From positions 1 through 31,487 of IMG/VR virus record IMGVR_UViG_3300044640_001162: a stretch of DNA of 31,487 nucleotides; one strand, written 5' to 3'. Positions 3,277 to 30,336 of this stretch are shown here, in pieces. Source of the DNA: a virus. The notes below the pieces were generated by a model. The model saw only the letters and a program-made list of their open reading frames with translations, was not told where the DNA came from and did no database searches. Within the stretch, counting starts at the first letter, position 1. Every line of letters starts with the position of its first letter. The translations under genes and the position numbers were made by a program.

Positions 3277-5712
3277 ATGGCAGATAGAGTTCTGATTTCC
3301 CCCGGTGTTTACGATCGAGAAATTGACGGCACCATTCGTCCAGCCTCTCCTGTTGGAGTTGGTTCCGCTGTCGTTGTTCAGCGCAGCAAAGGTCCAGCGA
3401 TGGAGCCTGTTCTCGTTAAGGATAGAGATCTGGACGAACAATTGTTTGGTCTTCCGTCTTCGTCTGGAAAAGATCTTGGAGCATATACTGCTCGTACGTA
3501 TCTTAATCTAGAAACGAATCCCTTGACTCAAATTCGCGTTCTAGGAATGGATGATACTGGAGTTGTTCCAGGATTCAATATTCCAAGCCCTGGTGGTCTT
3601 TACGCTATCGGTGCGTCTGGTTCGTCTGTGGTGGCACTGATTCTTGCCTCTGGCACTGTTACACTTGCTGGCACTCTTACTTCTTCTGTCGAAGAATTGG
3701 GAATCACCATCGCTGGATATGGCGATGTTACCGCAAGTCTCAACAGAAGCTCTTCAAAGTATTTGAAGAAAGTTTTGAATACTGACGCTTCGCAATTTTC
3801 CGCTCAAAAGCATTTGGTTTACGCTGTTTACGACTACGCAAACAAAACGCCAACAGTTACCAATGCGTTCTTTGCAGCGCAGGTTCCGCTATCAAACAAC
3901 TGGCAAGATTCTTTCATTACTGGATCGACGACTGAAGTTATTTCACAGCCATTTGGTGTTACTGAATATGGTCTGTTTGGGATTGGAAACAAGTTTGCTG
4001 GTGTATCTGCAAACGAACAGTTTAAGATCACAATCATGAACCTGAAGAAGTCTACGAATCCTTCTGTTGATGAATTTGGAACCTTCACGTTGCTTGTCAG
4101 AAGCTATGAAGACAATGACCGAAATCCTGTCGTCCTTGAGTCATTCTCTGGATTGTCTCTCAATCCAGATTCGCCAAATTACATTTGTCGAGTTATTGGT
4201 GATTCGTATAAAGTCTGGAACAAGACACAAAAGAAATTTGATGAGTTTGGAGACTATGAGTCAAAGTCGAAATACATCTACATTGTTCCATCATTGGATC
4301 TGAAGAACGGAAATTGTCCAGACTCTTCGCTTCCTTTTGGATTCAGAGGTCAACGCACGATTCTCTCTGGGGCGTTCTCAGGAAAAGGATCTCTTCCGGA
4401 TATTCCGTTTGTTTCGAATTTGCTCTACAAGAATGATTTCAATACAAGAGTTTGTTGGGGTGCCGCCGTAATCAATAATGCCTCTGGTTCCTTGAACTAT
4501 GGTATTCTTGATAAGGCACAACATCTTCCAAGAACGCTAACTCTTGCCTCTGGTTCGACTGGAGCGAAGTTCAGCTTGAAGTGGATCTCTGCTTCTGTTG
4601 GTTCAGCGTCGGGATTCAATGATTCGACTCGAATGACTGATATTCAACTTCAGGCTTTGAGTACTTCGATTCAGTATAACACTGGTTCTACAAATCCTGC
4701 AACTTCTGGTTCCGCAGGATATACTGGATATCTCTCGCTTGATAATATCGAGAACACTCCGCTTGCTAAGTTCACGATGATTGTCTCGGACGGATTTGAC
4801 GGAACGGACATTACGAAAGCAAATCCGTTCGATCCTTCTGATATGTCTTCCGTCTCGTCCTACCAGACGTATGCATATCGAGCTGCTCTTGACATGCTTT
4901 CTAATCCGGAAGAAGTAGAATTGAAAGATTTGGCTCTTCCTGGAATTTGGGCAAGCAAGGTAACGGATTACGCAACTGACATGGTTGAGAATCGTGCTGA
5001 TATGTTTTATATCATGGACCTTTCTGGATCAACTGTCGACGATGTTATCGACCACATCACAGCAAAGAACATGGACTCGAACTATGTTGCTTGTTATTTC
5101 CCCGATGTACAAATCGAAGATAAGACAAACAACAAGTTGGTTACTGTTCCTCCTTCTGTTATTCTTCCTGCCGTTTACGCATACTCAGATGCTGTAAGCT
5201 ATCCTTGGTTTGCGCCTGCCGGATTTGCTCGTGGCGGCCTCCAGATTCACGGTGTCAAGAAAGCGAAAGAGAAGCTAAAGAAATTGCAACGTGATCGCCT
5301 TCAGGAGAACCGTATCAATCCAATTGCTTCGTTCACAGGAGAGGGTACTGTTGTTTGGGGTCAGAAAACCTTGCAGAAGGCTGAGTCTGCTCTTGATCGA
5401 GTAAACGTTCGTAGAATGCTTATTTCGGTCCGAAAGATGATTGCCAAAGAGGCAACGAAAATTGTTTTCGAACCGAACGTCTCTGCGACTTGGGATAAGT
5501 TCATCAACAAGGTTGAACCGAAGCTTGAGGTTATTCGCAGGAACTTTGGTATCGAAGAATTCAAGTTGATTCTCAATGATTCTACGACAACCGAAGACAT
5601 GATTGAAAGAAATATCATGTACGCCAAACTCGCAATCAAGCCAACTCGCTCGGCCGAAAAAATTCTTTTGGATTTCTTTGTCACGAACAATGCGGCTGGT
5701 TTCGACGAATGA
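3277..5712 (+). CDS. Contractile tail sheath protein, T4 gp18-like
   Basis: At 811 residues this is the major sheath subunit, which surrounds the tube and contracts to drive it through the host envelope. The N-terminus (VLISPGVYDREIDGT) is the standard sheath opening, with the SPGVY motif. Residues 610-811 form the conserved C-terminal sheath domain: AYSDAVSYPWFAPAGFARGG, then a QENRINPIASF segment, GTVVWGQKTL, VRRMLISVRKMI and a LLDFF end strand. The middle is Ser/Gly-rich (SGSS, ASGSLN, ASGSTG, TGSTNPATSG), probably surface-inserted domains; T4 gp18 is 659 residues, so the insertions make this one longer. The ATG follows a good AAGGAG. The gene is closed by an intrinsic terminator at 5741. 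Confidence 0.96.
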   Translation: MADRVLISPGVYDREIDGTIRPASPVGVGSAVVVQRSKGPAMEPVLVKDRDLDEQLFGLPSSSGKDLGAYTARTYLNLETNPLTQIRVLGMDDTGVVPGFNIPSPGGLYAIGASGSSVVALILASGTVTLAGTLTSSVEELGITIAGYGDVTASLNRSSSKYLKKVLNTDASQFSAQKHLVYAVYDYANKTPTVTNAFFAAQVPLSNNWQDSFITGSTTEVISQPFGVTEYGLFGIGNKFAGVSANEQFKITIMNLKKSTNPSVDEFGTFTLLVRSYEDNDRNPVVLESFSGLSLNPDSPNYICRVIGDSYKVWNKTQKKFDEFGDYESKSKYIYIVPSLDLKNGNCPDSSLPFGFRGQRTILSGAFSGKGSLPDIPFVSNLLYKNDFNTRVCWGAAVINNASGSLNYGILDKAQHLPRTLTLASGSTGAKFSLKWISASVGSASGFNDSTRMTDIQLQALSTSIQYNTGSTNPATSGSAGYTGYLSLDNIENTPLAKFTMIVSDGFDGTDITKANPFDPSDMSSVSSYQTYAYRAALDMLSNPEEVELKDLALPGIWASKVTDYATDMVENRADMFYIMDLSGSTVDDVIDHITAKNMDSNYVACYFPDVQIEDKTNNKLVTVPPSVILPAVYAYSDAVSYPWFAPAGFARGGLQIHGVKKAKEKLKKLQRDRLQENRINPIASFTGEGTVVWGQKTLQKAESALDRVNVRRMLISVRKMIAKEATKIVFEPNVSATWDKFINKVEPKLEVIRRNFGIEEFKLILNDSTTTEDMIERNIMYAKLAIKPTRSAEKILLDFFVTNNAAGFDE

Positions 5713-5832: not shown

Positions 5833-6321
5833 GTGGCAGAAATTTTGGACATCAATCAGATGCTCGCGAATGAATATGAACCCAAACGATCTTGGCAGTG
5901 GGTACTAGAGATCGACGGTATCGATTCTTTCACGGCCAAGACCGCTTCGCGCCCGAACAAGAAATATGAAGAGATTACTTTGGACTGGATGAATCAAAAG
6001 ATTTATCATTCCGCAAAAGGATCGTGGGAACCAATTGAAATTTCTTTGTATGATCCTATCGCCCCGTCACAATGTCTCAAAGTTATGGAGTGGATGAAAT
6101 TAGTTCATGATGACACTACTGGTCGTATGGGCTATGCATCAATCTATAAAAAGACTTTTACGTTGAAAATTTGTGATGGTGGCGGATTGGTTATTGAAAA
6201 GTGGAAAGCTGTCGGTGCTTGGCCAACAAACATTGATCTTGGAAAGCTTGACTATGCAGACGCAAGCGCGCTAGCGGTTTCGTTTACGTGTCGTTGCGAT
6301 CGATGGATTCAGGAATTTTGA
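5833..6321 (+). CDS. Tail tube protein, T4 gp19-like
   Basis: This 162-residue protein has the length and features of the T4 gp19 family, whose hexamers stack to form the inner tail tube. Characteristic segments are SWQWVLEIDGIDSFTAKTA, RPNKKYEEITLDWMNQKIY, the WEPIEISLYDP strand, and the KWKAVGAWPTNIDLGKLDY segment with the C-terminal strand ALAVSFTCRCDRW. The start is GTG at 5833, supported by TAGGAG at 5818-5823 and by the fixed N-terminal length of the family. The adjacent upstream sheath gene supports the call. The stop overlaps the next ATG (ATGA). Confidence 0.93.
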   Translation: MAEILDINQMLANEYEPKRSWQWVLEIDGIDSFTAKTASRPNKKYEEITLDWMNQKIYHSAKGSWEPIEISLYDPIAPSQCLKVMEWMKLVHDDTTGRMGYASIYKKTFTLKICDGGGLVIEKWKAVGAWPTNIDLGKLDYADASALAVSFTCRCDRWIQEF

Positions 6322-7868: not shown

Positions 7869-9926
7869 ATGAAAAAGACTTTCTCAAAAAAGATCATTCA
7901 GGAAGCTCTTTCTCAAGAACTATCCAAAAGTCTGATTAATGAAAAGATGACCGACATTCCCGGCAATATGATTGCTGGTGTAAAGAATGCCGTATCTTCA
8001 GGGCTTGGCTCCTATAATGTTGGCAAGATCAATAATCAGATTAAGAAGAGCGCAGAAAGAATTGGCAAAGAGTGGGATTCTGTCGAAGCTGTTGCAAGAA
8101 AAGGCGCCGAGAAGATAAAGAATTCTAGCAATCCTCAAGTTGCAGGAAATGCCCAAAATGTAGAGAGAAACGTTTCCAGTATCGGAAAGGCGATCAAGCA
8201 AGCAACTGCTCAGATGAACGCTCTAGCCAATACTGGAATTACTTCCGTTCCAGGCGCTCAATCAAATGCCCGCAGTGGAATAGAACAAGATCCGAATGGT
8301 CAGTTAATGAATGGTCTAGATGACAACGAGGATGATTTCAAGACCATCGAGAAGACCACGAAGTTTGGAAACAAATATAAAGAATCAGCAATTCAGCGTT
8401 GGGCAGAGAAGCTTGGAATGGACACTGACAAAATTGGTGTTCACGAATGGTCTGCTTTGAATAAGACGTTTTTGGAACTTCGTTCTTTGGGAGCCAATCC
8501 TTTTTCCATGACTCCAGAACAGGTGGATAAACTTGTTCGATACGAGAGAGCAAGAAACTCGGCAATTGAGAAAGGGCAAGCTGACGAATATCTTGGAAAT
8601 TTCCAGCACTATGATTACGTTTTCGGAAAAGCGAAAGCTGACAAGCTGCGCCAGGCCCTTGCGGACAAGCATGGAGTTCCTGTTGAAAAACTCCGAAATG
8701 CTTATCTTGGAGATCCTCCGGGCGAAAAGAAAACTGAACCTGCCAAGGCTGAACCTCCAGAAGATGGAATGAGCTTGTCTGGCGGAGAAGAGGAAGATTC
8801 CGATCCTGAAGTTCCTAATGTTGCCGTTCCTTCTGTCAAAAAGTCAGATATCGATCCAGAAACGGGTCAAGACATTGGCTCTATGAAAGTTGGCATGCCA
8901 TCTCAAAGGCAGGGACAGGTGGCACGAGGGCCGAAGGTTCAGATGCCGCCAACGGCAAAGCCCCAGGCCCAACCAAGTATCGATCCAGAAACGGGTCAAG
9001 ACGTCAACTCAATGAAGGTTGGTCCAAGAGTCGATCGCAATGCGCCACCAAGACAGCCATCTTTGCAGACACCTCCTGCTCCTCCTATTCCTCTCACGAA
9101 CGTAAAGCCAGTTGCTCCGCAACCTGAGCAAGCACCAATTCCTCTCACGAAGGTGAAACCAGTCAACAATGTTGCGCTTCCTCCTTCTGCAAAACAGGAT
9201 GCTCCAAAAGCTTTTGCTCCTCCTATGAATAATTTCTTTGGCGAACTTCCTGCTCAGGACACTGGCAAAGAAGTTCAGGTTGGCTCTTTTGATAATCCCG
9301 GATTTGGAGAAAAGCCCGCAACTCCAGAAGATCAGAAATCAAGGCTTGCTTCTGATTTTTCTAACGCAAAAACTCCAGAAGCAAAAGAGAAAGCAAGAAA
9401 GGCTTATGAAGACTTCATTTCAAAGTCTCCAACATCTCCATCTGCTCCAAAGAGCAAGTTGAGCGATATGTTTGACGATAACAAGGAAGATCTTGCGGAC
9501 GAATTCAAGAACGCAAAAACTCCAGAAGCAAAGGAGAAAGCTCGAAAGAAATACGAAGATTTCATCTCTAAGGCTCCACAAGGTCCAACAAAGAGAAATA
9601 AACTTAGCGATATTTTTGACGATGAAGAGTCAGATAAGGCTCGATCTGCCGCCGCTGTTGCAAATACATTCTCGAAAAAAATTCCGTCTGGCACTGGAAA
9701 GGTTTCGGGATTCTCAAAGCCAAAATCAAACAGAGTAAGCGATGAGGAGTCAAAATTTGAGAGAGATCTTTCTGCTAAACAATCAGAGAAATTGAAAGCT
9801 GATGCTCAGGCTCAGATGAAAAAACTTCTTGACCAAGAGAAAAATAAGGATACCATAGAACCTCCAAAAGTCTCCGGCTTCTTTGATGATGGCGAAGAAA
9901 ACAAAACAAAAGTAGGTAAAAAATGA
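7869..9926 (+). CDS. Large repeat-bearing Pro/Lys-rich protein, unknown
   Basis: The 685-residue product is not recognised. The N-terminus (KKTFSKKIIQEALSQEL) is a basic amphipathic helix with an I-Q-E triplet at residues 10-12. Residues 15-125 are helical (GNMIAGVKNAVSSGLGSYN onward). Residues 150-285 look like a small globular domain (IQRWAEKLGMDTDKIGVHEW through LADKHGVPVEKLRNAYLGD). Residues 290-490 are Pro-rich with two DIDPETGQD/SIDPETGQD motifs and two PIPLTxVKPV motifs. Residues 492-587 hold two copies of a 47-48-residue unit (NAKTPEAKEKARK-YEDFISK then KLSD-FDD). The tail is charged. It follows a similar low-complexity gene and overlaps the gp26-like gene (ATGA). A flexible virion or scaffold-like component is a guess. 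Confidence 0.7.
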   Translation: MKKTFSKKIIQEALSQELSKSLINEKMTDIPGNMIAGVKNAVSSGLGSYNVGKINNQIKKSAERIGKEWDSVEAVARKGAEKIKNSSNPQVAGNAQNVERNVSSIGKAIKQATAQMNALANTGITSVPGAQSNARSGIEQDPNGQLMNGLDDNEDDFKTIEKTTKFGNKYKESAIQRWAEKLGMDTDKIGVHEWSALNKTFLELRSLGANPFSMTPEQVDKLVRYERARNSAIEKGQADEYLGNFQHYDYVFGKAKADKLRQALADKHGVPVEKLRNAYLGDPPGEKKTEPAKAEPPEDGMSLSGGEEEDSDPEVPNVAVPSVKKSDIDPETGQDIGSMKVGMPSQRQGQVARGPKVQMPPTAKPQAQPSIDPETGQDVNSMKVGPRVDRNAPPRQPSLQTPPAPPIPLTNVKPVAPQPEQAPIPLTKVKPVNNVALPPSAKQDAPKAFAPPMNNFFGELPAQDTGKEVQVGSFDNPGFGEKPATPEDQKSRLASDFSNAKTPEAKEKARKAYEDFISKSPTSPSAPKSKLSDMFDDNKEDLADEFKNAKTPEAKEKARKKYEDFISKAPQGPTKRNKLSDIFDDEESDKARSAAAVANTFSKKIPSGTGKVSGFSKPKSNRVSDEESKFERDLSAKQSEKLKADAQAQMKKLLDQEKNKDTIEPPKVSGFFDDGEENKTKVGKK
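8849..9002 (+). repeat. 25-base perfect direct repeat (IDPETGQD)
   Basis: Identical 25-base copies lie at 8849-8873 and 8978-9002. They are in frame, encode IDPETGQD, and are each followed by a diverged NSMKVG/GSMKVG segment. They mark a duplicated linker motif in the Pro-rich region of the host gene. Confidence 0.9.
9342..9629 (+). repeat. Tandem 47-48-codon repeat, two units
   Basis: Unit 1 is about 9342-9485 and unit 2 about 9489-9629. Both encode the same order: L-A-S/D-D/E-F-x-NAKTPEAKEKARK-x-YEDFISK, a variable Ser/Pro linker, then KLSD-I/M-FDD. Stretches such as AACGCAAAAACTCCAGAAGC are identical between units while third positions differ elsewhere, so the duplication is not very recent. 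Confidence 0.88.
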
Positions 9927-10732
9927 ACGAACAGAAATTGAATCTCCTTCGTAGCGAAATGAACACTGTAAATAAGATCGTTCCCTTCGATACCGTAAAG
10001 CTCCCATCAAATGGAATTGTGTATGATGAAAGCAATCCCCTCTGTAATGAAACAGAGGTCGCCATTCGAGGGATGGGCGCCCTTCAAGAAAATATCCTTA
10101 ATTCCGAAGCCCTCAAGAAGAAGGGAACGATTTCATCAGTACTGATCAAGAGTTGTCTCGCAAACCCAAACATCGATGTAAGTTCTTTGCTTTTGGGAGA
10201 TAAAGCTGCTCTTCTTTTGGCTATTCGAATTTCTGGCCTTGGACATGAATACAAGGTTATGACAAGATGTCCAAGTTGTGGTCATACGTTCAAGTACACT
10301 TTCGATTTGCGAAAGTGTCCTATTCGACGACTGAAAGTTGAGCCGTTGCGAAAGAATACGAATCTTTTTGACTTCGTGCTTCCTGTATTGAGGAAGACTG
10401 TTACGTTCAAGCTTTTGACAGATCTTGACGATCTTGAACTTGCAAATATGCAAAAAGCGAAAGCGAAGCAGAATTCTGACATTGATAGCAGCACTACAGA
10501 TAGATTGTTGCAGCAAATTGTTGCAATTGAAGGAAACGAAAGCAGAGAATTCATTTCCGAATTTGTTTTTGGACCCATGAAGTCTTTGGACATCAAGTCG
10601 TTGGTAGACTATATTGAAGACATTGCTCCTGGTATGGACTTGGAGGAGGAAGTTAAGTGTCCAAAGTGTGATGATACAGATCTTCACAAGGTGCCAATGG
10701 TAAACGAGTTCTTTCGCCCGAAGACCCGATAA
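9923..10732 (+). CDS. Baseplate hub assembly protein, T4 gp26-like
   Basis: The 269-residue product matches the T4 gp26 family, needed to assemble the baseplate hub. Diagnostic parts are the VKLPSNGIVYDE opening, the TEVAIRGMGALQENIL segment, the TISSVLIKSCL helix, LLLGDKAALLLAIRISGLGHEY, and a zinc-ribbon-like CPSCGH at residues 116-121. A second CxxC pair (C246, C249, CPKCDD) near the C-terminus could complete a metal site. ATG overlaps the upstream stop. The last 29 bases overlap an ORF in the +1 frame that lacks a start codon and continues for 79 codons; see that entry for a possible frameshift. Confidence 0.82.
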   Translation: MNEQKLNLLRSEMNTVNKIVPFDTVKLPSNGIVYDESNPLCNETEVAIRGMGALQENILNSEALKKKGTISSVLIKSCLANPNIDVSSLLLGDKAALLLAIRISGLGHEYKVMTRCPSCGHTFKYTFDLRKCPIRRLKVEPLRKNTNLFDFVLPVLRKTVTFKLLTDLDDLELANMQKAKAKQNSDIDSSTTDRLLQQIVAIEGNESREFISEFVFGPMKSLDIKSLVDYIEDIAPGMDLEEEVKCPKCDDTDLHKVPMVNEFFRPKTR

Positions 10733-10943
10733 TCGTTCCGGAACAGATTTCTTCGGAATTGATACGAAGTACATTATCAACGTACAAAAGAAAGAGATTT
10801 TTGATCTAGTCGCAGAAGGATGGAATTCTGAAACCTTGATGGAAATGTCCATTGCGGAAAGAAGGTATTATTACCATCGCCTGGTTGAGAAGTATACTCC
10901 AAAGGAACAAGCACCTCCTCCGAAGAGAGGTAATTCCAAATGA
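10704..10943 (+). CDS. gp51-like ORF lacking a start; possible frameshift extension of gp26-like
   Basis: This frame is open for 79 codons from just after a stop at 10701 but has no ATG, GTG or TTG before 10836. Its sequence is protein-like: VQKKEIFDLVAEGWNSETLM then EMSIAERRYYYHRLVEKY, a pattern (helix, Gly turn, M-x-I-x-x-R-R-Y-Y) seen in small T4-like hub assembly proteins. In T4, gene 51 follows gene 26, which fits the position. It could be read by a +1 (or -2) frameshift from the gp26-like gene within 10704-10732; UUU at 10712-10714 followed by C allows tRNA-Phe to re-pair with UUC, giving a fusion of about 339 residues. Alternatives are a non-canonical start (for example ATT 10758), a short product from ATG 10839, or a sequencing error. 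Confidence 0.55.
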   Translation, partial: TSSFARRPDNRSGTDFFGIDTKYIINVQKKEIFDLVAEGWNSETLMEMSIAERRYYYHRLVEKYTPKEQAPPPKRGNSK

Positions 10944-10968: not shown

Positions 10969-13386
10969 TTGGCACAAGATATCGAATCTCTGTTGGCGGC
11001 TCTTCGAGGGGATGGACTCTCGAAGGCTGCCGACGAAATTTCCGCAAAGATTCAGACTGGCGCAAAGTTGTCAAACTCTGCGCTAAAAGTCTTGAGTAAC
11101 GCTCGCGCAAAAAACAATCGCGAGATGGATGAAGCCTTAAAGAAAATCAAAGCCTACGAAGAAGATGCTGGCTCGATGACCAAAGTCGACAAAGCAGACT
11201 ATGAACTTCAGAAGAAGATTTTCGACCAGAGAATTAAAGGCAACAGACAAATTGGTATCATAACAGACTCTACCAATAAATTGTCTGAGGCAAACGAAAC
11301 TCAAACAAAGACTCAATCCAAAACTATTGAATCTATCAAGTCTTTCATTTCTTCCATGAACGAAGAGGTGACTGTTCTTGGGCTTTTGGACAGAGCCTTT
11401 GTTGGTCTTGAATATGTTCAAGGACTTTGGTTTCAAAGTCAGACAGAACTTACTGCTGCTTTAGGTGCTGCAACGCGCCAGGCAGGCATGGCAACCTCGC
11501 AAGTTGAAGACTTGGAAGCTGCTGCCGGAAATATGAGATCGACCTTCCAGACGCTCGGAGGCAGCCTCATCGGTTGGACGGACTCGATTGCTTTTGCGAA
11601 CGAAGCTCAGATGGCTTTTCGGACTTCAATTGGCAGCATGTCCGAACAGTTTCAACTTGAAGTTCTTGCGACTGAAAGAGGGTTGGGCATGTCTGCCGAA
11701 CAAACGGCGCAGTTGTTTCGAACTCTTCAGACTGGACTGGCTGATGGTAACGAGTCTTTGGGAGATTTTACTTTGGATCTGCGAGAATTTGCAGCTTCCA
11801 TTGGCGCCAACTCAAACCAGCTTGCCCAGGATTTTATAGCTTCGAGCAATTCTCTTCAGAGATTTGGAAGAAATGGAACTCAAGTTTTTCGTGAAGTTGC
11901 TCTATTCGCAAATCGTTTCGGAATGGAAACCGAGCGTGTTCTTCAGATGTCGTCAAGATTCGACCAATTTGGAGCCGCTTCAGATAACATCAATCAGCTC
12001 AATTCAATGTTTGGAACTACGATCAGTTCTCTTGAGCTGATGCAAACCACAGATCCGATCGAAAGAATTGAAATGATCACCAATTCAATTAGAGATCAGG
12101 GAATTGCTTGGAACGACATGGATTTCGCTCAGCAGAGATCTTTGGCTGCTTCTTTGGGTATTTCCGAAGCGGAAGCTGGAAGAGTGATGATGGGCGAAGA
12201 CATGGCCGCAATCCAAAGAGAACAAGCTGCCCGCGAACAGACAGCAGAAGCTCAGGCCCAAAAAAGAATCAATCAGCAAGACAATCTTCTCAACATCATT
12301 TCTGCTACAAGCACAAGATTCATGTCTTGGGGCGACCAACTAGAAAGAATCTATTTGGTTATCTCTGATTCGCTTGCGCCAATTTTTGAAGCACTTCATC
12401 TGTCTTCGCAAGACACTGCATCTTCTTTGATGGATATGGTTCAGTCGGTAGTTCAATCTCCAGAATTCGAATCAACAGTTCGAAATATCGCAAATTTCAT
12501 TAAAGAGATGCCTCCGGCAATTGAAATGTTTCGACCTGTCTGGGAAACGATTCGAGATACGGCAATCGAAATGTGGCCAATGATTCAAGAAATTGGAAGA
12601 ACTTTAATGGAGGTTTTCCAGGAAGCCAGAACGAGATTTGGTCCTATTTGGGAGCAGATCAAAGACACCACAAAACAAATGAAGCCTATTTGGGACTCAA
12701 TATCATCTACCATTGCTTGGACTGTGGATAAATTGGTGGAAGCCTTCTCTCCAGGAAGCGCTCTAATGAATGGAATTTCTTATATTGCAGGAACTATAGG
12801 AGGCTTCGCTAACGGAGTTGGCGGACTTTTGGGAGTAACTTCGAATGAAATTCCTGCACCCAACACTGGATCAATTGGTTCTTCTTCTTCGCCAATTGTT
12901 TCTTCGGCTCCACAACCAAGAAATTCGACGAGGCAGATGGTGGGAAATAGCATTCCAGCCAGAACGCAAGACTATCGTCAAATTTCTGAGTCTGCGTTGG
13001 CCGGAGGCGCTAGCCCCACTTCTGTTATTCAAAACATGGTTCAAACAGCAGCAAAAGATCCTGCTCAGGATTTCGCTATTCGAAATTCTTTTGGAATCTC
13101 TCGTGACGAAGATTTGGCTGTTGGCCTTTCCAGAAAGTTCTCTCAGATGAGTGCGGTCGCAAACGAAGCTGCAACGACGGGCTTCGTTGGAAGTACAAGT
13201 CCGGTCACGTCAACCGGGACTCCTGCGGTTTCATCTTCTTCGGCGGTAGAGTCTGCACCAACTACGATGCGAACAGCAAATCTCCCAGGACAAACAAATC
13301 AGCAAATGCAGATCGTTGCATCCGACGTTGTGATGGATGGAAAACAGGTAGGTAAAGTGTTCTTCCAGATCTCGGCGAGGGCATGA
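10969..13386 (+). CDS. Tail tape measure protein, T4 gp29-like
   Basis: At 805 residues and set between hub assembly and tube-initiator genes, this is the tape measure, which fixes tail length and is ejected with the DNA. The start is TTG at 10969 with CGAGG at 10957-10961. Residues 30-135 are charged and helical (coiled coil likely). Residues 140-420 are a helical Ala/Gln-rich region with motifs such as LYRTLQTGL-like LFRTLQTGLADGNESL, VFREVALFANRFG and INQLNSMFG. A Trp-containing quasi-repeat follows at 515-580 (FRPVWETIRDTAIEMWPMI, FGPIWEQIKDTTKQ, MKPIWDSISST). Residues 590-625 are hydrophobic and Gly-rich (YIAGTIGGFANGVGGLLG), a possible membrane-interacting part. The C-terminus is Ser/Thr-rich and ends in a compact strand region. 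Confidence 0.86.
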   Translation: MAQDIESLLAALRGDGLSKAADEISAKIQTGAKLSNSALKVLSNARAKNNREMDEALKKIKAYEEDAGSMTKVDKADYELQKKIFDQRIKGNRQIGIITDSTNKLSEANETQTKTQSKTIESIKSFISSMNEEVTVLGLLDRAFVGLEYVQGLWFQSQTELTAALGAATRQAGMATSQVEDLEAAAGNMRSTFQTLGGSLIGWTDSIAFANEAQMAFRTSIGSMSEQFQLEVLATERGLGMSAEQTAQLFRTLQTGLADGNESLGDFTLDLREFAASIGANSNQLAQDFIASSNSLQRFGRNGTQVFREVALFANRFGMETERVLQMSSRFDQFGAASDNINQLNSMFGTTISSLELMQTTDPIERIEMITNSIRDQGIAWNDMDFAQQRSLAASLGISEAEAGRVMMGEDMAAIQREQAAREQTAEAQAQKRINQQDNLLNIISATSTRFMSWGDQLERIYLVISDSLAPIFEALHLSSQDTASSLMDMVQSVVQSPEFESTVRNIANFIKEMPPAIEMFRPVWETIRDTAIEMWPMIQEIGRTLMEVFQEARTRFGPIWEQIKDTTKQMKPIWDSISSTIAWTVDKLVEAFSPGSALMNGISYIAGTIGGFANGVGGLLGVTSNEIPAPNTGSIGSSSSPIVSSAPQPRNSTRQMVGNSIPARTQDYRQISESALAGGASPTSVIQNMVQTAAKDPAQDFAIRNSFGISRDEDLAVGLSRKFSQMSAVANEAATTGFVGSTSPVTSTGTPAVSSSSAVESAPTTMRTANLPGQTNQQMQIVASDVVMDGKQVGKVFFQISARA

Positions 13387-17913: not shown

Positions 17914-18992
17914 ACCTAAGTGTGGTACGGTTGCACCAAGTGGCTTTTGAATTTTCTAGTTTTGAGTTCTCTGAAGACAGAGAGCCGGGAAAAATTAGCA
18001 TTCAAGACTTCTTTCTTTTCTTCAAGCTGAAGACCGAGAAGGATTTCGAGATTGCTGAGTCTTTTCGCGACTACCAAGAAGCAATAAAGAAAAACCATGC
18101 CATCATAGCAAGTTTTCGGTCTTTCAAAATGAAGCACGAGAACTATGATGAGTCCAGGTTCGTTCCAGATTTCTTGTGGCAGAAAAGCCAAAAATTGAAA
18201 AATAAGGTTTGGATGGAATGCTTGGAGATCCTGAAAGAACAAGTTGGAATCGAGAACTTCGAACGAATTTGCCGGTTCTTTCAATCGTTCAGATCGGATG
18301 TGATCAATAAGCTTTCGAGAATCATAAAGATCAAAGACGGAGAAGCGGAAATTGATTTCTTGTTCTCGGAGAACTTTAGGTTCAAGGCTGCTCCGGATTC
18401 GTTGAATGTTTTCAATTTACAAAAAGACAATAGAGATGTTTTGATTCCGCAAAATGAAAACTCTTCTATTTTTGCACCAGACTTTCGACAATTCGAATTC
18501 AGAACGTTCTTGAATATCCAAGGAATCGATTCATATTTTGAGCATGAGCAAATATACGAAAAGATAGGAAAAGATTTGAACATCCCGAACCCAAAAGAGG
18601 GAATCATTTCATATTTGTACGGCTCCAAGAACCAGAAGTTTGAAAGCTTCTTTAACAAGGAGCAAATTTTTGATCGAATAGAGAATCAAATTTTCTGGTT
18701 TGGAGATTGTCCAGTTTTCGTAAAAAATGACTACGAACCAGGAAAGAAGATTCACACAATCATTCAGACGATCTCACAATTCTTCTATGTGGAAAAACTT
18801 GGAAAGATTCTCGATTTCCTAGAGCATAAAAAGAGTTGCTTACTTTATCCTCATCACGACTGTCTGGTTTTTTCGCTGGATAGCCGCGAGCCGGAAGTGA
18901 TTGATTTCTTGCTTGACGAATTAGATGGTCCAGTATACAAAACGAAGTGGTACATAGGCACGAACTATAGAGACGTAACGGAGACACAGTGA
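17910..18992 (+). CDS. Compact DNA polymerase A (PolA)-like protein
   Basis: Three polymerase-A palm/fingers motifs appear in order: motif A DFRQFEFR at 191-198 (compare DYSQIELR), a motif B-like KEGIISYLYG ending at Y237-G238, and motif C HHDC at 315-318 (usual form HDE). Between B and C lies a helix IQTISQFFYVEKLGKIL, like the region before motif C in the family. At 360 residues it lacks room for a 3'-5' exonuclease domain. The motif B arginine and the motif C glutamate are absent, so activity is doubtful although both catalytic Asp positions (D191, D317) remain. TTG 17910 overlaps the hub stop; GTG 17922 is an alternative start. Its location in the tail operon rather than with replication genes is odd. 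Confidence 0.66.
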   Translation: MNLSVVRLHQVAFEFSSFEFSEDREPGKISIQDFFLFFKLKTEKDFEIAESFRDYQEAIKKNHAIIASFRSFKMKHENYDESRFVPDFLWQKSQKLKNKVWMECLEILKEQVGIENFERICRFFQSFRSDVINKLSRIIKIKDGEAEIDFLFSENFRFKAAPDSLNVFNLQKDNRDVLIPQNENSSIFAPDFRQFEFRTFLNIQGIDSYFEHEQIYEKIGKDLNIPNPKEGIISYLYGSKNQKFESFFNKEQIFDRIENQIFWFGDCPVFVKNDYEPGKKIHTIIQTISQFFYVEKLGKILDFLEHKKSCLLYPHHDCLVFSLDSREPEVIDFLLDELDGPVYKTKWYIGTNYRDVTETQ

Positions 18993-19615
18993 CAGAAGAA
19001 AATTCAGAAACAAAGCCAAATCAACTTACACCAGAAGAGGTTCTAGAACGAACGAACGAGCTAATTTCCAACATGTGCTCAGAGGCTCGCGCAGATGCGT
19101 TGGCTGAGTTTCTTGGAAAGGTTGGCATAGAGCGCTATCTCTACGCGCCCGCCTCGTCGAAATTGGATCACCACAATTGTTTCGCTGGCGGCCTAGCCCT
19201 TCACAATTTGAACGTGTTTCAGTTTCTCGTTGAGCTTGACGCACTCCGACCACGAGAAGATTTTACAACAGAGACTCTTTGTGTAGTGGCAATTCTCCAT
19301 GACATCGGAAAGCTCTGCAATACAGATCTTGGAGACTATTATGTTCCAACAACTGAGCGGTGGAAACTTGAGCGCGGAGAGGAATACACTCCAACGCAGG
19401 GAAAAATCTATCTTACGACTCAGCAACGAACAATGTGGTTGATTTCTCATTTTGGATTTTCTTTGACTGCCGAAGAGTACCAAGCCATTCTGCTCAACGA
19501 CGGTCAGTACATCGATGAAAACAAGATCTATAGAAATCATGAATGCGATCTAGCTAAGCTTTTGCACATGGCAGATATGATGGCTTGCATGAAAGAAAGT
19601 GGCAAAACTTCTTAG
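18989..19615 (+). CDS. HD-domain hydrolase, YhaM-like
   Basis: The 208-residue product has the HD superfamily metal ligands: an early HHNCFAGGLALHNL (H61/H62, H72), the paired H104-D105 in AILHDIGKL, H154 in SHFGF, and D196 in HMADMMA. The block PASSKLDHHNCFAGGLALH closely resembles the HD domain of YhaM-type 3'-5' exoribonucleases, but the N-terminal OB domain of YhaM is missing. HD enzymes hydrolyse phosphoester bonds in nucleotides or RNA/DNA; a nucleotidase role would also fit. The start is GTG at 18989 with CGGAG at 18979-18983, overlapping the polymerase-like gene by 4 bases. Confidence 0.8.
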   Translation: MTEENSETKPNQLTPEEVLERTNELISNMCSEARADALAEFLGKVGIERYLYAPASSKLDHHNCFAGGLALHNLNVFQFLVELDALRPREDFTTETLCVVAILHDIGKLCNTDLGDYYVPTTERWKLERGEEYTPTQGKIYLTTQQRTMWLISHFGFSLTAEEYQAILLNDGQYIDENKIYRNHECDLAKLLHMADMMACMKESGKTS

Positions 19616-25430: not shown

Positions 25431-26800
25431 CCGAAGAAAAGAAGAATACGTTCGATCCTGGATTTGAAGAGAAGATTCCGCAAGCAATGCTGCTCGATAC
25501 AATTTGGGCAGAGCAGATTTGTGAGGTTTTGAAGCCTGAATTATTTGACTCTGTTCATACCCAAATGGTTGCAGAGATTTTGATGCAGCACTACTTTGCA
25601 TACAAAGTGTTTCCAAGTATCAATCTTTTGGAAGATATCTGCAAAAAGGATGTTGATGATCCAATCTTGTCAAAGAAGTGTCTCTCGTACATTATGCGAA
25701 TGAGGCAGAATCCTCTCAACAACGACATTGAGTATGTCAAAGATAAGGCGTTGGAATTCTTTCGCTTGCAGACTGTTGGCCGAGCCCTCAGTGAAGAAAT
25801 TCTTCCCAGGATCGAAAGTGGTCAGAATCTTGAAGACATCGTCAGCATCTTCCAGCGTGCGGTTTCGAAAGGAACCTCAGCAAATATTGGATACGATTAC
25901 AACGATGATGACAACAAGCGATTTCTAGACGTGAAAGAGAACAAGGTTTCTACTGGTTGGAAGTATCTTGACGATATTCTTCATGGAGGATATGGAGCGA
26001 AACGTCTCATTACGTGGATTGGCGCAGCCGGAGCCGGAAAGAGTTCGATGCTCGTTTGTTCTGGCGTTGGTGCTTTGCTTGCTGGAAAGACTGTGGTGCA
26101 CTACACTCTTGAGCTTGACGAGCTTGAGGTTGCCCGAAAATACGATGCTTCTATTACCGGAATCGAAATCAATAACATCTGTCTTGAACGGAAAATTGTT
26201 CTAGAAAATTTGGCCAAGAAGCTTCCGGCAGATGCTCATTTGATTATCAAAGAGTATCCGATGAAGTCAGCATCGGTTCAGACAATCAAGAGTCACCTTT
26301 CTAGACTTCGACTGAAAGGAATCATTGCAGATCTCGTCATCATCGATTACGGAGATCTTCTTCGAGTGGGAGAACAAGGCGGCCCTCGTGAAGAGCGCAG
26401 GCATGGCCTAGAATCGATTTGGCAAGACATGAAAGCTCTTGCTCAAGTCTTGGACATTCCGGTCGTTACAGCGACGCAGACGAACCGCAGCGGCTATCAG
26501 GCAGACTTGATTACGCCCGACCAAGTTTCTGAGGATTTCACAAAGATCCAGACTTCGGATTGCGTCATTACGATCGCCCGAAACATGGAGCAGAAGGCTG
26601 CTGGCGTTGGAAAGATGTATGTCGCCAAGAATCGCCAAGGTAGAGACGGGCAAATTTTTGCGTACTCGCTAAACACGGCAAATACGCAAGTTGAACTTTT
26701 CGATCTTACTGATGAGATTGAAAAGAAGATTGAGGGAGAACCTCAAACGGATCTTGATAAAATGAAAGCGTTCTCGAAAAAGAAAGGTTGGGTATCATGA
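25427..26800 (+). CDS. Replicative DNA helicase, T4 gp41/DnaB-like
   Basis: The 457-residue product is a DnaB-family hexameric helicase. An N-terminal helical domain (residues 15-130) precedes the RecA-like motor: Walker A GAAGAGKS at 199-206, an EL-D/E motif (YTLELDELEVARKYDA), Walker B LVIIDYGDLL around D307, and VVTATQTNRSG (sensor Gln) with ITIARN at the end. T4 gp41 is 475 residues. It unwinds the fork for the phage polymerase and works with primase. It starts in an ATGA overlap with the exonuclease gene and ends in another with the RyR gene. Confidence 0.94.
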   Translation: MTEEKKNTFDPGFEEKIPQAMLLDTIWAEQICEVLKPELFDSVHTQMVAEILMQHYFAYKVFPSINLLEDICKKDVDDPILSKKCLSYIMRMRQNPLNNDIEYVKDKALEFFRLQTVGRALSEEILPRIESGQNLEDIVSIFQRAVSKGTSANIGYDYNDDDNKRFLDVKENKVSTGWKYLDDILHGGYGAKRLITWIGAAGAGKSSMLVCSGVGALLAGKTVVHYTLELDELEVARKYDASITGIEINNICLERKIVLENLAKKLPADAHLIIKEYPMKSASVQTIKSHLSRLRLKGIIADLVIIDYGDLLRVGEQGGPREERRHGLESIWQDMKALAQVLDIPVVTATQTNRSGYQADLITPDQVSEDFTKIQTSDCVITIARNMEQKAAGVGKMYVAKNRQGRDGQIFAYSLNTANTQVELFDLTDEIEKKIEGEPQTDLDKMKAFSKKKGWVS

Positions 26801-27595: not shown

Positions 27596-28585
27596 ATGAC
27601 ACTACTGGTTCCAAGACAAGTTTACAAACCGTACATGTATCCCGAGTGCTTTGATTTTTGGTTGAAGCAACAGCAAGCACACTGGCTGGTCACTGAAGTT
27701 CCAATGAATGGAGATGTCCAAGATTGGAAAATGTCTTTGACTGACAATGAAAAAGTTGTCGTTGGAGGAATCTTGAAAGGATTTATCCAATCGGAGATTC
27801 AAGTAAATGAGTATTGGAGCCAGAAAGTGGCCTCTTGGTTTCGGCATCCTGAAATTCAGATGATGGCTATTACATTTGGCGCTTTCGAATCGATTCATAC
27901 TAATGCGTACTCTCATCTGAATGAAACTTTGGGAATCGAGGATTATGACGCCTTTCTTGCCGAGCCAACAGCAAAGGCGAAAATTGATCGCTTGGTAGAA
28001 TTTAACAAAGAAACCGGAGCGACAAAAGAAGAAATCGCCCTCTCGCTTGCAGTTTTCTCTGCTTTCACTGAGGGTGTTTCTCTTTTTGCAAATTTTGCTG
28101 TGCTACTAAATTTCGAAAGGTTCAATAAACTCAAAGGCGTTGGAAGAATTATTAGCTGGTCGATCAGAGATGAGACGCTTCATTCTTCTGCTGGATGTTG
28201 GTTGTTTAGAACTTTCATCAAAGAGAATCCCGAAATTTGGACAGACGAATTGAAGAAGAAGATATATCAGGCGGCCAGAGACACCGTAGCGATCGAGGAT
28301 GCGTTCATCGACAAGGTGTTTGCGGGCGGCTCAATTCAGGGATTAGATCCGAAAGATTTGAAGAACTTCATTCGAAGCCAAGCAAACATGAAGCTCGGAG
28401 AACTTGGATTGAAGATGAACTGGAAAACTTTAGACAAAGACTCTTTGGAGAAATTTGAGGCGTGGTTTGAGCCTCTTTCTTCTGGCGCCACAAGTGTTGA
28501 TTTCTTCAGCCAGAGAGTGTCAGCTTATGGCAAAGGTGTAGTAACTTTTGATGATGGAATGTTTGATGAGGAGGACGAAGGATGA
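27596..28585 (+). CDS. nrdB: Ribonucleotide reductase class I, small subunit (NrdB)
   Basis: The 329-residue product is the radical-generating subunit. All six carboxylate/His metal ligands are present in order: D43, E98 and H101 (FESIHTNAY), E159 (FTEGVSLF), E193 and H196 (SIRDETLH). Y105 sits four residues after H101, the place of the radical Tyr in E. coli NrdB (Y122), so this is the Tyr-radical type. The C-terminus (VDFFSQRVSAYGKG, then an acidic tail) would dock on NrdA. It is shorter than the E. coli protein (375). ATG 27596 follows a 32-base gap with AAGG; the stop overlaps the nrdA start (ATGA). Confidence 0.96.
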   Translation: MTLLVPRQVYKPYMYPECFDFWLKQQQAHWLVTEVPMNGDVQDWKMSLTDNEKVVVGGILKGFIQSEIQVNEYWSQKVASWFRHPEIQMMAITFGAFESIHTNAYSHLNETLGIEDYDAFLAEPTAKAKIDRLVEFNKETGATKEEIALSLAVFSAFTEGVSLFANFAVLLNFERFNKLKGVGRIISWSIRDETLHSSAGCWLFRTFIKENPEIWTDELKKKIYQAARDTVAIEDAFIDKVFAGGSIQGLDPKDLKNFIRSQANMKLGELGLKMNWKTLDKDSLEKFEAWFEPLSSGATSVDFFSQRVSAYGKGVVTFDDGMFDEEDEG

Positions 28586-30336
28586 ATCTAGAAGAATTGA
28601 AGACTGCCGGAGAAGCTCCCGACTGGATGACGGAAGACTCTTTTAAGACTCTTTCTGGTGGATATCTCCTCGAAGGCGAGACTCCAAAAGCAATGTATCG
28701 CCGAGTGGCATACGGTGTCGGCCACCGCATTGCGGAAATGTCCCAAGAAGGAAAGGGTTATGACATTTCTATTTCGGAAGAATTTTTTAGTTTAATGTGG
28801 AAGAATTGGCTTTGTCCTGCGTCTCCCATTCTTTCAAATGTTGGCACAACAAGAGGCTTGCCAATTAGCTGCTTTTCTGTAGCAATTCCTGATTCTGTTG
28901 ACGGGATAATGAAGAGCATGCACGAAGTTGCTATGTTGAGCAAAAACGGCGGAGGTGTTGGAACGCACTGGAACGCAGTTCGTCCAAGAGGCTCAAAAAT
29001 TTCACAAAATGGAACTTCGTCTGGCACTCTTTCATTCTTGAAGATATTGGACTCGACGGCGGTTGGCGTTTCTCAGGGAGGAGTTCGTCGTGGTGCTGCG
29101 GCTGCTTATCTTGATATCGAACACGGAGACTTTGATGAGTTTCTGCAAATGCGCAAACCAGTCGGAGATCCGAATAGCCAATGTTTGAATCTTCATCATG
29201 GAGTTTGTATTTCTGATTCTTTCATGAAAAAAGTCAAGGATGGAGACGAAGAAGCTCGTCGACGTTGGCAGAAGGTTCTAAAAACTCGTCTTGAGGTTGG
29301 CGAGCCGTACATGTTCTTTACGGACAACGTAAACAACGCAAATCCTCAGTGCTACAAAGATCTTGGTCTTCTTGTTCAGGCTTCGAACATCTGCACAGAA
29401 ATCATGTTGTTCACTGATTTTCTCCACAGTTTTGTTTGTTGTTTGAGTTCCTTGAATCTTGCGAGATACGATGAATGGAAAGATACCAATCTCGTACAAA
29501 CCTCAATTCTCTTTCTCGATGGAGTCATTGAAGAGTTTATTCAAAAAGCAAAAGACATTCCAGGTTTCGAAAATTCTGCACGTTTTGCAATCAAGAGTCG
29601 AGCAATTGGTCTTGGCGTTTTGGGTTTTCACACATTGTTGCAGCAAAAAGGTTTGGCTTTCGATTCGATGGAAGCCCACATTCTCAATTCGAAGATTTTC
29701 AAGGGAATCCACGAAAAAGGTGAACAAGCCACAAAGACTCTTGCGGATCTTTTTGGCGAACCAGAATGGTGCAAAGGTCACGGAAGGCGTCACACGCATC
29801 TATTTGCTATCGCTCCAACTGCATCAAATTCTATCATCTCTGGCGGAATGTCGAGCGGCATTGAACCAATCACAGCAAATCTTATCTCAAAAGGAACAGC
29901 GAAGGGAACTTTCCAAATCAAAAACAAGCTTCTCGAAGAGCTTCTCGAAACTCTTGGAGAGAATACGTCCAAGACTTGGAAGTCGATCAACCTGCAAGAC
30001 GGAAGCGTACAACATCTCAATTTCTTGACAGAAGAACAAAAGAAAATTTTCTTGACAGCGAGAGAAATTGATCAAATGGCTTTGGTACGTCTGGCTGCCG
30101 CCAGACAGAAGTTTATTGACCAGGGTCAGTCCTTGAACCTCTTCTTCTTTCCAGATGTAGATCAAAAGAAGCTTCACAAGATTCATGTAGAAGCACACAA
30201 GCTTGGAATCAAGTCTTTGTATTACACTCATAGCAATTCTCCTTTGAAAGATTCTGGAACAAAGGAGTATAAACGCGAGAGCATTGAGTCGAAAGCTCCA
30301 AAGCCTCCCGAAGATTGTGCTTTGTGTGAGGGCTGA
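28582..30336 (+). CDS. nrdA: Ribonucleotide reductase class I, large subunit (NrdA)
   Basis: The 584-residue product reduces ribonucleotides to deoxyribonucleotides. Active-site residues are present: C97 (SCF) and C286 (VCCLSSLNL) as the redox pair, N269-I-C271-T-E273 as the thiyl-radical triad, Y547-Y548 for radical transfer, and a C-terminal CALCEG thiol pair. It begins only about 80 residues before C97, whereas E. coli and T4 NrdA have an extra N-terminal ATP-cone domain (about 750-760 residues in all), so the dATP off-switch is missing. It forms an operon with nrdB. The next ATG follows the stop directly and belongs to an HNH endonuclease, but the NrdA C-terminus is intact. Confidence 0.96.
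   Translation: MNLEELKTAGEAPDWMTEDSFKTLSGGYLLEGETPKAMYRRVAYGVGHRIAEMSQEGKGYDISISEEFFSLMWKNWLCPASPILSNVGTTRGLPISCFSVAIPDSVDGIMKSMHEVAMLSKNGGGVGTHWNAVRPRGSKISQNGTSSGTLSFLKILDSTAVGVSQGGVRRGAAAAYLDIEHGDFDEFLQMRKPVGDPNSQCLNLHHGVCISDSFMKKVKDGDEEARRRWQKVLKTRLEVGEPYMFFTDNVNNANPQCYKDLGLLVQASNICTEIMLFTDFLHSFVCCLSSLNLARYDEWKDTNLVQTSILFLDGVIEEFIQKAKDIPGFENSARFAIKSRAIGLGVLGFHTLLQQKGLAFDSMEAHILNSKIFKGIHEKGEQATKTLADLFGEPEWCKGHGRRHTHLFAIAPTASNSIISGGMSSGIEPITANLISKGTAKGTFQIKNKLLEELLETLGENTSKTWKSINLQDGSVQHLNFLTEEQKKIFLTAREIDQMALVRLAAARQKFIDQGQSLNLFFFPDVDQKKLHKIHVEAHKLGIKSLYYTHSNSPLKDSGTKEYKRESIESKAPKPPEDCALCEG

Follow-up and report, generated by a model that had tools for sequence, protein, structure and literature searches.

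A conserved frameshift in phage tail genes was reportedly described by Xu, Hendrix and Duda in 2004. Frameshifted tail chaperones are well known, and a review calls the frameshift conserved "except T4" (PMC5009743). According to papers that cite Vladimirov, Gautam and Davidson (2022), the hub assembly chaperones gp26 and gp51 of T4 have been identified as tail assembly chaperones, and the chaperones of T4-like phages are reported as separate genes (via PMC10885494, PMC12846349). A -1 shift has been described for the tail chaperone of the Vandenendeviridae (phage Adele, PMC12846349), and TTT-CGC has been proposed as a +1 shift site in the tail chaperones of the HF1-group haloviruses (PMC7230728). 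Outside phages, mass spectrometry has demonstrated a +1 site of the form UUU_CGN in influenza PA-X (PMC3498833).

The locus compared here with these systems lies in the virus record IMGVR_UViG_3300044640_001162, a metagenome contig of 31,487 bases from an uncultured virus; the whole of this stretch was analysed and is called the window. The features of its tail module and of the chaperone locus are the following.

3277 to 5712, plus strand: tail sheath gene of a contractile tail module (PHROG 23, tail sheath, E 2.3e-58)
5833 to 6321, plus strand: tail tube gene, lying ahead of the chaperone locus (match to the tail tube proteins of PHROG 4542, E 4.9e-23)
9923 to 10732, plus strand: gp26-type gene in the zero frame, ATG start, short product (TAC-N) of 269 aa (PF12322, PHROG 150, predicted fold)
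10701 to 10703, plus strand: TAA that closes the +1 frame upstream and confines a shift to 10704-10732 (from the sequence)
10704 to 10943, plus strand: +1 open region without a usable start (HMM of the relatives' extensions, three-helix prediction, openness in 107 of 107 loci outside the -1 group)
10709 to 10717, plus strand: proposed slip site UUC_UUU_CGC (conserved Phe-Phe position; only +1 gives cognate re-pairing)
10716 to 10943, plus strand: putative 75-residue C-terminal extension of the long product, the +1 frame being used from 10716 on
9923 to 10714 joined to 10716 to 10943, plus strand: predicted long product (TAC-NC), 339 aa
10969 to 13386, plus strand: tape-measure-like gene encoding 805 aa, with a TTG start behind GAGG (assigned by position only)

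The gp26-type ORF matches the Pfam family T4_baseplate (PF12322) at 54.1 bits, against a gathering cut-off of 24.5, and PHROG 150, "baseplate hub", with an E of 2.4e-18. It has the sheath and tube genes upstream, with two extra genes between tube and gp26, and the tape-measure-like gene downstream. The protein encoded at 10969-13386 gave no useful PHROG or Pfam match, and in phages SP-15, LIS04 and immuto the equivalent place is occupied by the annotated tail tape measure gene. The locus resembles lambda gpG/gpGT in that one gene would give both a short and a long product, in its start-less overlap and, judged by position, in a probable place just before the tape measure gene, but it differs in that lambda shifts by -1 at a heptamer, whereas the window would shift by +1 at UUU_C, and in that the window protein belongs to a T4 gp26-like family.

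Other parts of the window also carry recognizable genes. Between the tube gene and gp26, positions 7869-9926 encode a protein of 685 aa with a high content of Pro, Lys and Ala; direct repeats within its DNA are 84-87% alike, and SP-15, LIS04 and immuto have no gene at this place. Genes for the small and large subunits of a class I ribonucleotide reductase (PHROG 86 and 84) lie at 27596-30336, a weak match to RNA ligase (E 1.8e-4) at 1024-1587, and a metal-dependent phosphohydrolase-like protein at 18989-19615.

A sequence-only reading of this DNA had described a start-less +1 frame of 79 codons overlapping the gp26-like gene by 29 bases, and this description was confirmed. The frame is open from 10704 to 10940 and closed by a stop at 10941-10943, the overlap includes the gp26 stop, and the first ATG, GTG or TTG is a TTG at 10836, codon 45. 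Within the overlap, TTT_CGC occupies 10712-10717 in the gp26 frame, with TTT six codons ahead of the gp26 stop (10730-10732). Taken by itself, the overlap in the window supports a frameshift weakly and is only suggestive, because an opening of such length would arise by chance with a probability of about 0.0135 under a first-order Markov model; the -1 frame of the window closes 25 codons beyond the gp26 stop. The nonamer TTCTTTCGC has three copies in the window, against 1.1 expected, and is also in frame in one more gene, at 25757, so that the slip motif alone is insufficient.

Relatives of the locus were picked by their gp26 sequence only, a choice that was blind to the second frame. Isolates, including SP-15, LIS04, GXN1, Mel-JY01 and immuto, came from tblastn, and contigs came from two profile scans of IMG/VR (115 loci), the second being represented by the best 80 of at least 600. 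Once near-copies had been taken out and six -1 loci had been set apart after inspection, 107 unique loci remained. In all 107, the +1 frame ran on for at least 40 codons beyond the gp26 stop before closing (range 43-101, median 84), where about 5.3 would be expected by chance and the -1 frame was open in 4, the 107 loci being related to each other and so not 107 independent tests. SP-15, LIS04, GXN1, immuto and many contigs are arranged as in the window, Rhodothermus phage RM378 has the +1 pattern, and a search of bacterial genomes found one MAG contig with a +1 arrangement and UUU_CGU. The compared gp26 proteins are 21-34% identical to that of the window. The only close relative found via gp26 or the tape-measure-like protein was an identical contig, and conservation was therefore tested in distant relatives.

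Between related loci, pN/pS in the +1 frame past the gp26 stop has a mean of 0.26, and pN was below pS in 70 of 70 pairs, which share loci and among which the window has no pair of its own. Substitutions in this region fall on the three codon positions as 1005/676/2145, a third-position excess. By this pattern of substitution, the +1 frame in the relatives is under purifying selection.

These comparisons also bear on whether the extension could be a separate small gene, whose translation would restart, after termination of gp26, at a non-canonical codon such as ATT 10758 or would begin at the internal TTG at 10836. Annotators have handled parts of it in that manner: the GenBank entries SP15_046 (39 aa; 3797-3916 of L007, the SP-15 locus) and immuto gp038 (36 aa; 3833-3943 of L008, the immuto locus) are pieces of the frameshift extension called from internal ATGs, and in Mel-JY01 a start was picked within the overlap; in LIS04 and GXN1 the extension was left unannotated. 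However, a start at TTG 10836 would lose half of the conserved domain, ATT 10758 has no spaced Shine-Dalgarno (SD) sequence, and the open +1 frame extends upstream to include the slip site. Moreover, the vicinity of the junction is free of start codons in 56 of the 107 loci and holds one preceded by an SD sequence in only 3, and one locus (L031) lacks a start codon throughout the extension. A separate gene is thus improbable, and a shift of frame within the gp26-type gene is the preferred reading.

The extension itself behaves as a protein domain. That of the window matches a profile built from the other extensions at 18.9 bits (E 6e-8 for one sequence), and homology links the extensions of two remote subfamilies (E 5.7e-13). 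When the short form and the extension were folded separately, the short form was predicted with a pLDDT of 92.6 and the extension as three helices with a core pLDDT of 88-96. Searches with the extension against PDB sequences, Pfam, PHROGs and structure libraries gave nothing significant. Two members of A6 (extension domain) weakly match Pfam DUF6760 (best E 0.023), which might be the cellular equivalent of the extension; a follow-up search for DUF6760 gave no matches, its controls being blank as well. For the short form, a second look at the PDB placed the HK97 tail assembly chaperone (2ob9) at the top over 78 residues, with a Z of 4.6 and 5ir0 level at 4.5, and Foldseek gave an E of 3.4 against the HK97 chaperone, a hint that the predicted short form shares a fold with HK97 gp13.

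Nearly all loci have a codon that allows cognate +1 re-pairing, at a place close to the C-terminus of gp26 where Phe-Phe or Phe-Leu is conserved. The slip forms are UUU_CGN (the window type), UUU_UGG after a U run, UUU_CUU_UGG and, in one subfamily, CCC_AGU, the commonest being UUU_CGN or UUU_UGG. The first of the two Phe codons in FF-type loci is UUU in 15 and UUC in 8, and the second, the proposed slip codon, is UUU in 23 of 23; this is supportive rather than decisive, because UUU already makes up 78% of the Phe codons in gp26 bodies (738/949). The codon in the A site after UUU is CGN in 19 of these 23 loci, and the window has UUU_CGC. Six loci (L032, L035, L036, L037, L041, L042) carry TTT/TTC AAT CCC AGT in place of the UUU_CGN site, where re-pairing of tRNA-Pro from CCC to CCA would yield the same +1 frame. 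The sequence-only reading had looked to a +1 frame conserved among relatives without a start codon and to an invariant UUUC; the frame was kept in every one of the 107 loci and the start was missing near the junction in about half, but UUUC varies, being UUU_C or UUU_U in most forms and CCC_A in one subfamily, with a -1 shift in a few distant relatives. In Alishewanella phage Slickus01 (L012), a 44-codon +1 extension at about 3650-3840 has no obvious cognate slip site, and it possibly reflects a different mechanism or a chance frame.

The sequence UUU_CGN also links the window to more remote systems. The HF1-group haloviruses and HSTV-2 (PMC7230728, PMC5009743) likewise have a tail chaperone pair with a +1 shift and TTT-CGC just before the stop, a position that was checked in the sequence of halovirus HF2. 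Unlike the window, these are archaeal viruses with a short product of 156 aa, and their likeness to the gp26 family lies in motif and arrangement. In influenza A PA-X, at UCC_UUU_CGU (PMC3498833), tRNA-Phe in the P site moves from UUU to UUC with CGN in the A site and with no known downstream structure; only the decoding signal is similar, since PA-X is an unrelated gene translated by a eukaryotic ribosome.

Pausing at the gp26 stop was considered as a stimulus, since the sequence-only reading had proposed that a CGA-UAA end would favour it. This part of that reading is not supported: in relatives the gp26 stop follows the slip codon at a distance of about 4 to 16 codons, the stop is well past the A-site codon at the moment of slippage, and stop pausing is therefore not the driver. 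Stop-codon pausing of the RF2 type was rejected on the same grounds, as the stop is not in the A site and its distance from the slip site varies. No fold better than shuffled sequences was found downstream at five loci (z -0.55 to 1.63; window -0.55), and no upstream SD-like stimulator was seen beside the slip site of the window. Because neither stimulator was seen, the efficiency of the shift may be low.

The frame reached by +1 is also reached by -2, the shift used in phage Mu, and the seven-U run of the UUU_UUU_UGG subfamily would permit such a shift. A -2 shift is nevertheless very improbable, because its pairing is mismatched at UUC_UUU_CGC and at UUU_CUU_UGG, where +1 is cognate; at UUC_UUU_CGC, a +1 move of the P-site tRNA-Phe from UUU to UUC is the only cognate one. 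The window comes from a metagenome, yet an error of one base in assembly or sequencing, or a decaying gene, is scarcely conceivable as the cause. A separately listed IMG/VR contig (L002), possibly from a related sample, equals the window over 6408 bases that take in the junction and so speaks against an indel error; SP-15, LIS04, GXN1, immuto and many contigs are arranged alike, which refutes this explanation for the family; and the +1 frame is under purifying selection.

A frameshift is supported by a +1 frame that is conserved and under selection, by a homologous extension and by cognate slip sites at Phe-Phe. The locus is thus very probably a tail assembly chaperone gene of the gp26/gp51 family with a programmed +1 frameshift of the G/GT type; the slip itself, the ratio of the products and the chaperone role are what we infer. 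The central proposal of the sequence-only reading, a +1 slip at UUU-C that yields a fusion of about 339 residues, gains support from more than 100 loci, from purifying selection and from the homology of the extensions, and the fused product would have 339 residues. Its analogy with lambda G/GT as a tail assembly frameshift likewise stands, but with a +1 shift. Its view that two hub-assembly factors are fused is supported as to one long fusion, but a more fitting description is a single gene that would give a short (gp26-like) and a long (as a whole gp51-like) product, since T4 gp51 is a gp26 paralogue with an extra C-terminal tail.

Under the proposed +1 frameshift, most ribosomes would end at 10730-10732 and make the short chaperone of 269 aa. 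A minority would hold UUU (10712-10714) in the P site with CGC waiting in the A site, a codon that is little used in the window (4.4 per 1000, against 13.0 per 1000 for GCC). The tRNA-Phe would move forward and re-pair with UUC (10713-10715), the next codon would be GCC at 10716, and the shifted ribosomes would end at 10943 with a 339-aa protein carrying the three-helix C-terminal domain. Lambda gpG/gpGT suggests, by analogy, that the short form would coat the tape measure protein, whose putative gene is the neighbouring one, and that the few long forms would recruit tail tube subunits.

Within the same gp26 family, the shift may also take the other direction. GAP32, RaK2, LR756511 and three contigs have a homologous extension in the -1 frame (E 7e-9). 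The slip sequences of these -1 loci (L009, L010, L011, L045, L046, L047), U_UUU_UUC in five and U_UUU_UUU in L045, sit at the same Phe pair as the +1 sites. Jumbo phages of the RaK2/GAP32 type therefore share with the window both the gp26 family and the extension, but they, like the Vandenendeviridae (Adele, PMC12846349), differ in the -1 direction, at U_UUU_UUC or GTTTTT.

T4 gp26 and gp51 are paralogues (E 2e-23 over 194 columns), and T4-type gp26 and gp51 fall in one clade of the family tree (100/99), a tree whose deeper branching order is weakly supported and for which the ancestral state is left unclaimed. T4 gp26 is a homologue of the short product and stops at the Phe pair that is the proposed slip site of the others (E 7e-10), and gp51 has about 45 further residues past this pair. 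The C-terminal tail of gp51 resembles the extension in the right order, weakly when compared alone (E 0.005) and with an E of 2e-5 within the whole long form; the -1 group matches gp51 with an E of 5e-5. T4 differs in having two separate genes, where the window has one gene with a frameshift, and since T4 genes 26 and 51 are on opposite strands, no shift can join them. The window shows no separate gene of the T4 style for the long form: the extension has no start codon and no second gp26-type gene was found in the 31 kb record, which may be incomplete. On the simplest reading of these alignments, the two products of one frameshifted gene seem to have become two genes in T4 by duplication.

A wider reading is put forward tentatively, with slightly less than even confidence. 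The long chaperone of the gp26 family may be made in three interchangeable ways, by a +1 slip at UUU_C or UUU_U (or CCC_A), by a -1 slip at U_UUU_UU[CU] or by a duplicated full-length gene (T4 gp51); UUU_CGN may be a general, structure-free +1 signal in the tail genes of viruses of both bacteria and archaea; and the extension may be a widespread, unnamed protein domain that annotators skip and that has gone unnoticed for this reason.

The literature search turned up no description of a +1 shift for gp26-type genes, although Vladimirov et al. (2022), as represented in citing papers, may mention frameshifting relatives. The finding bears on the apparent exception of T4 to the rule of tail frameshifting: relatives of T4 gp26 do seem to frameshift, mostly by +1, and the two-gene arrangement of T4 looks like a replacement by gene duplication. 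It also points to a hidden conserved C-terminal domain that is recognised by no Pfam or PHROG family and that appears in GenBank as an empty gap or as shortened ORFs. Moreover, the many natural variants of one +1 slip site may serve as a test of which A-site codons promote slippage in bacteria.
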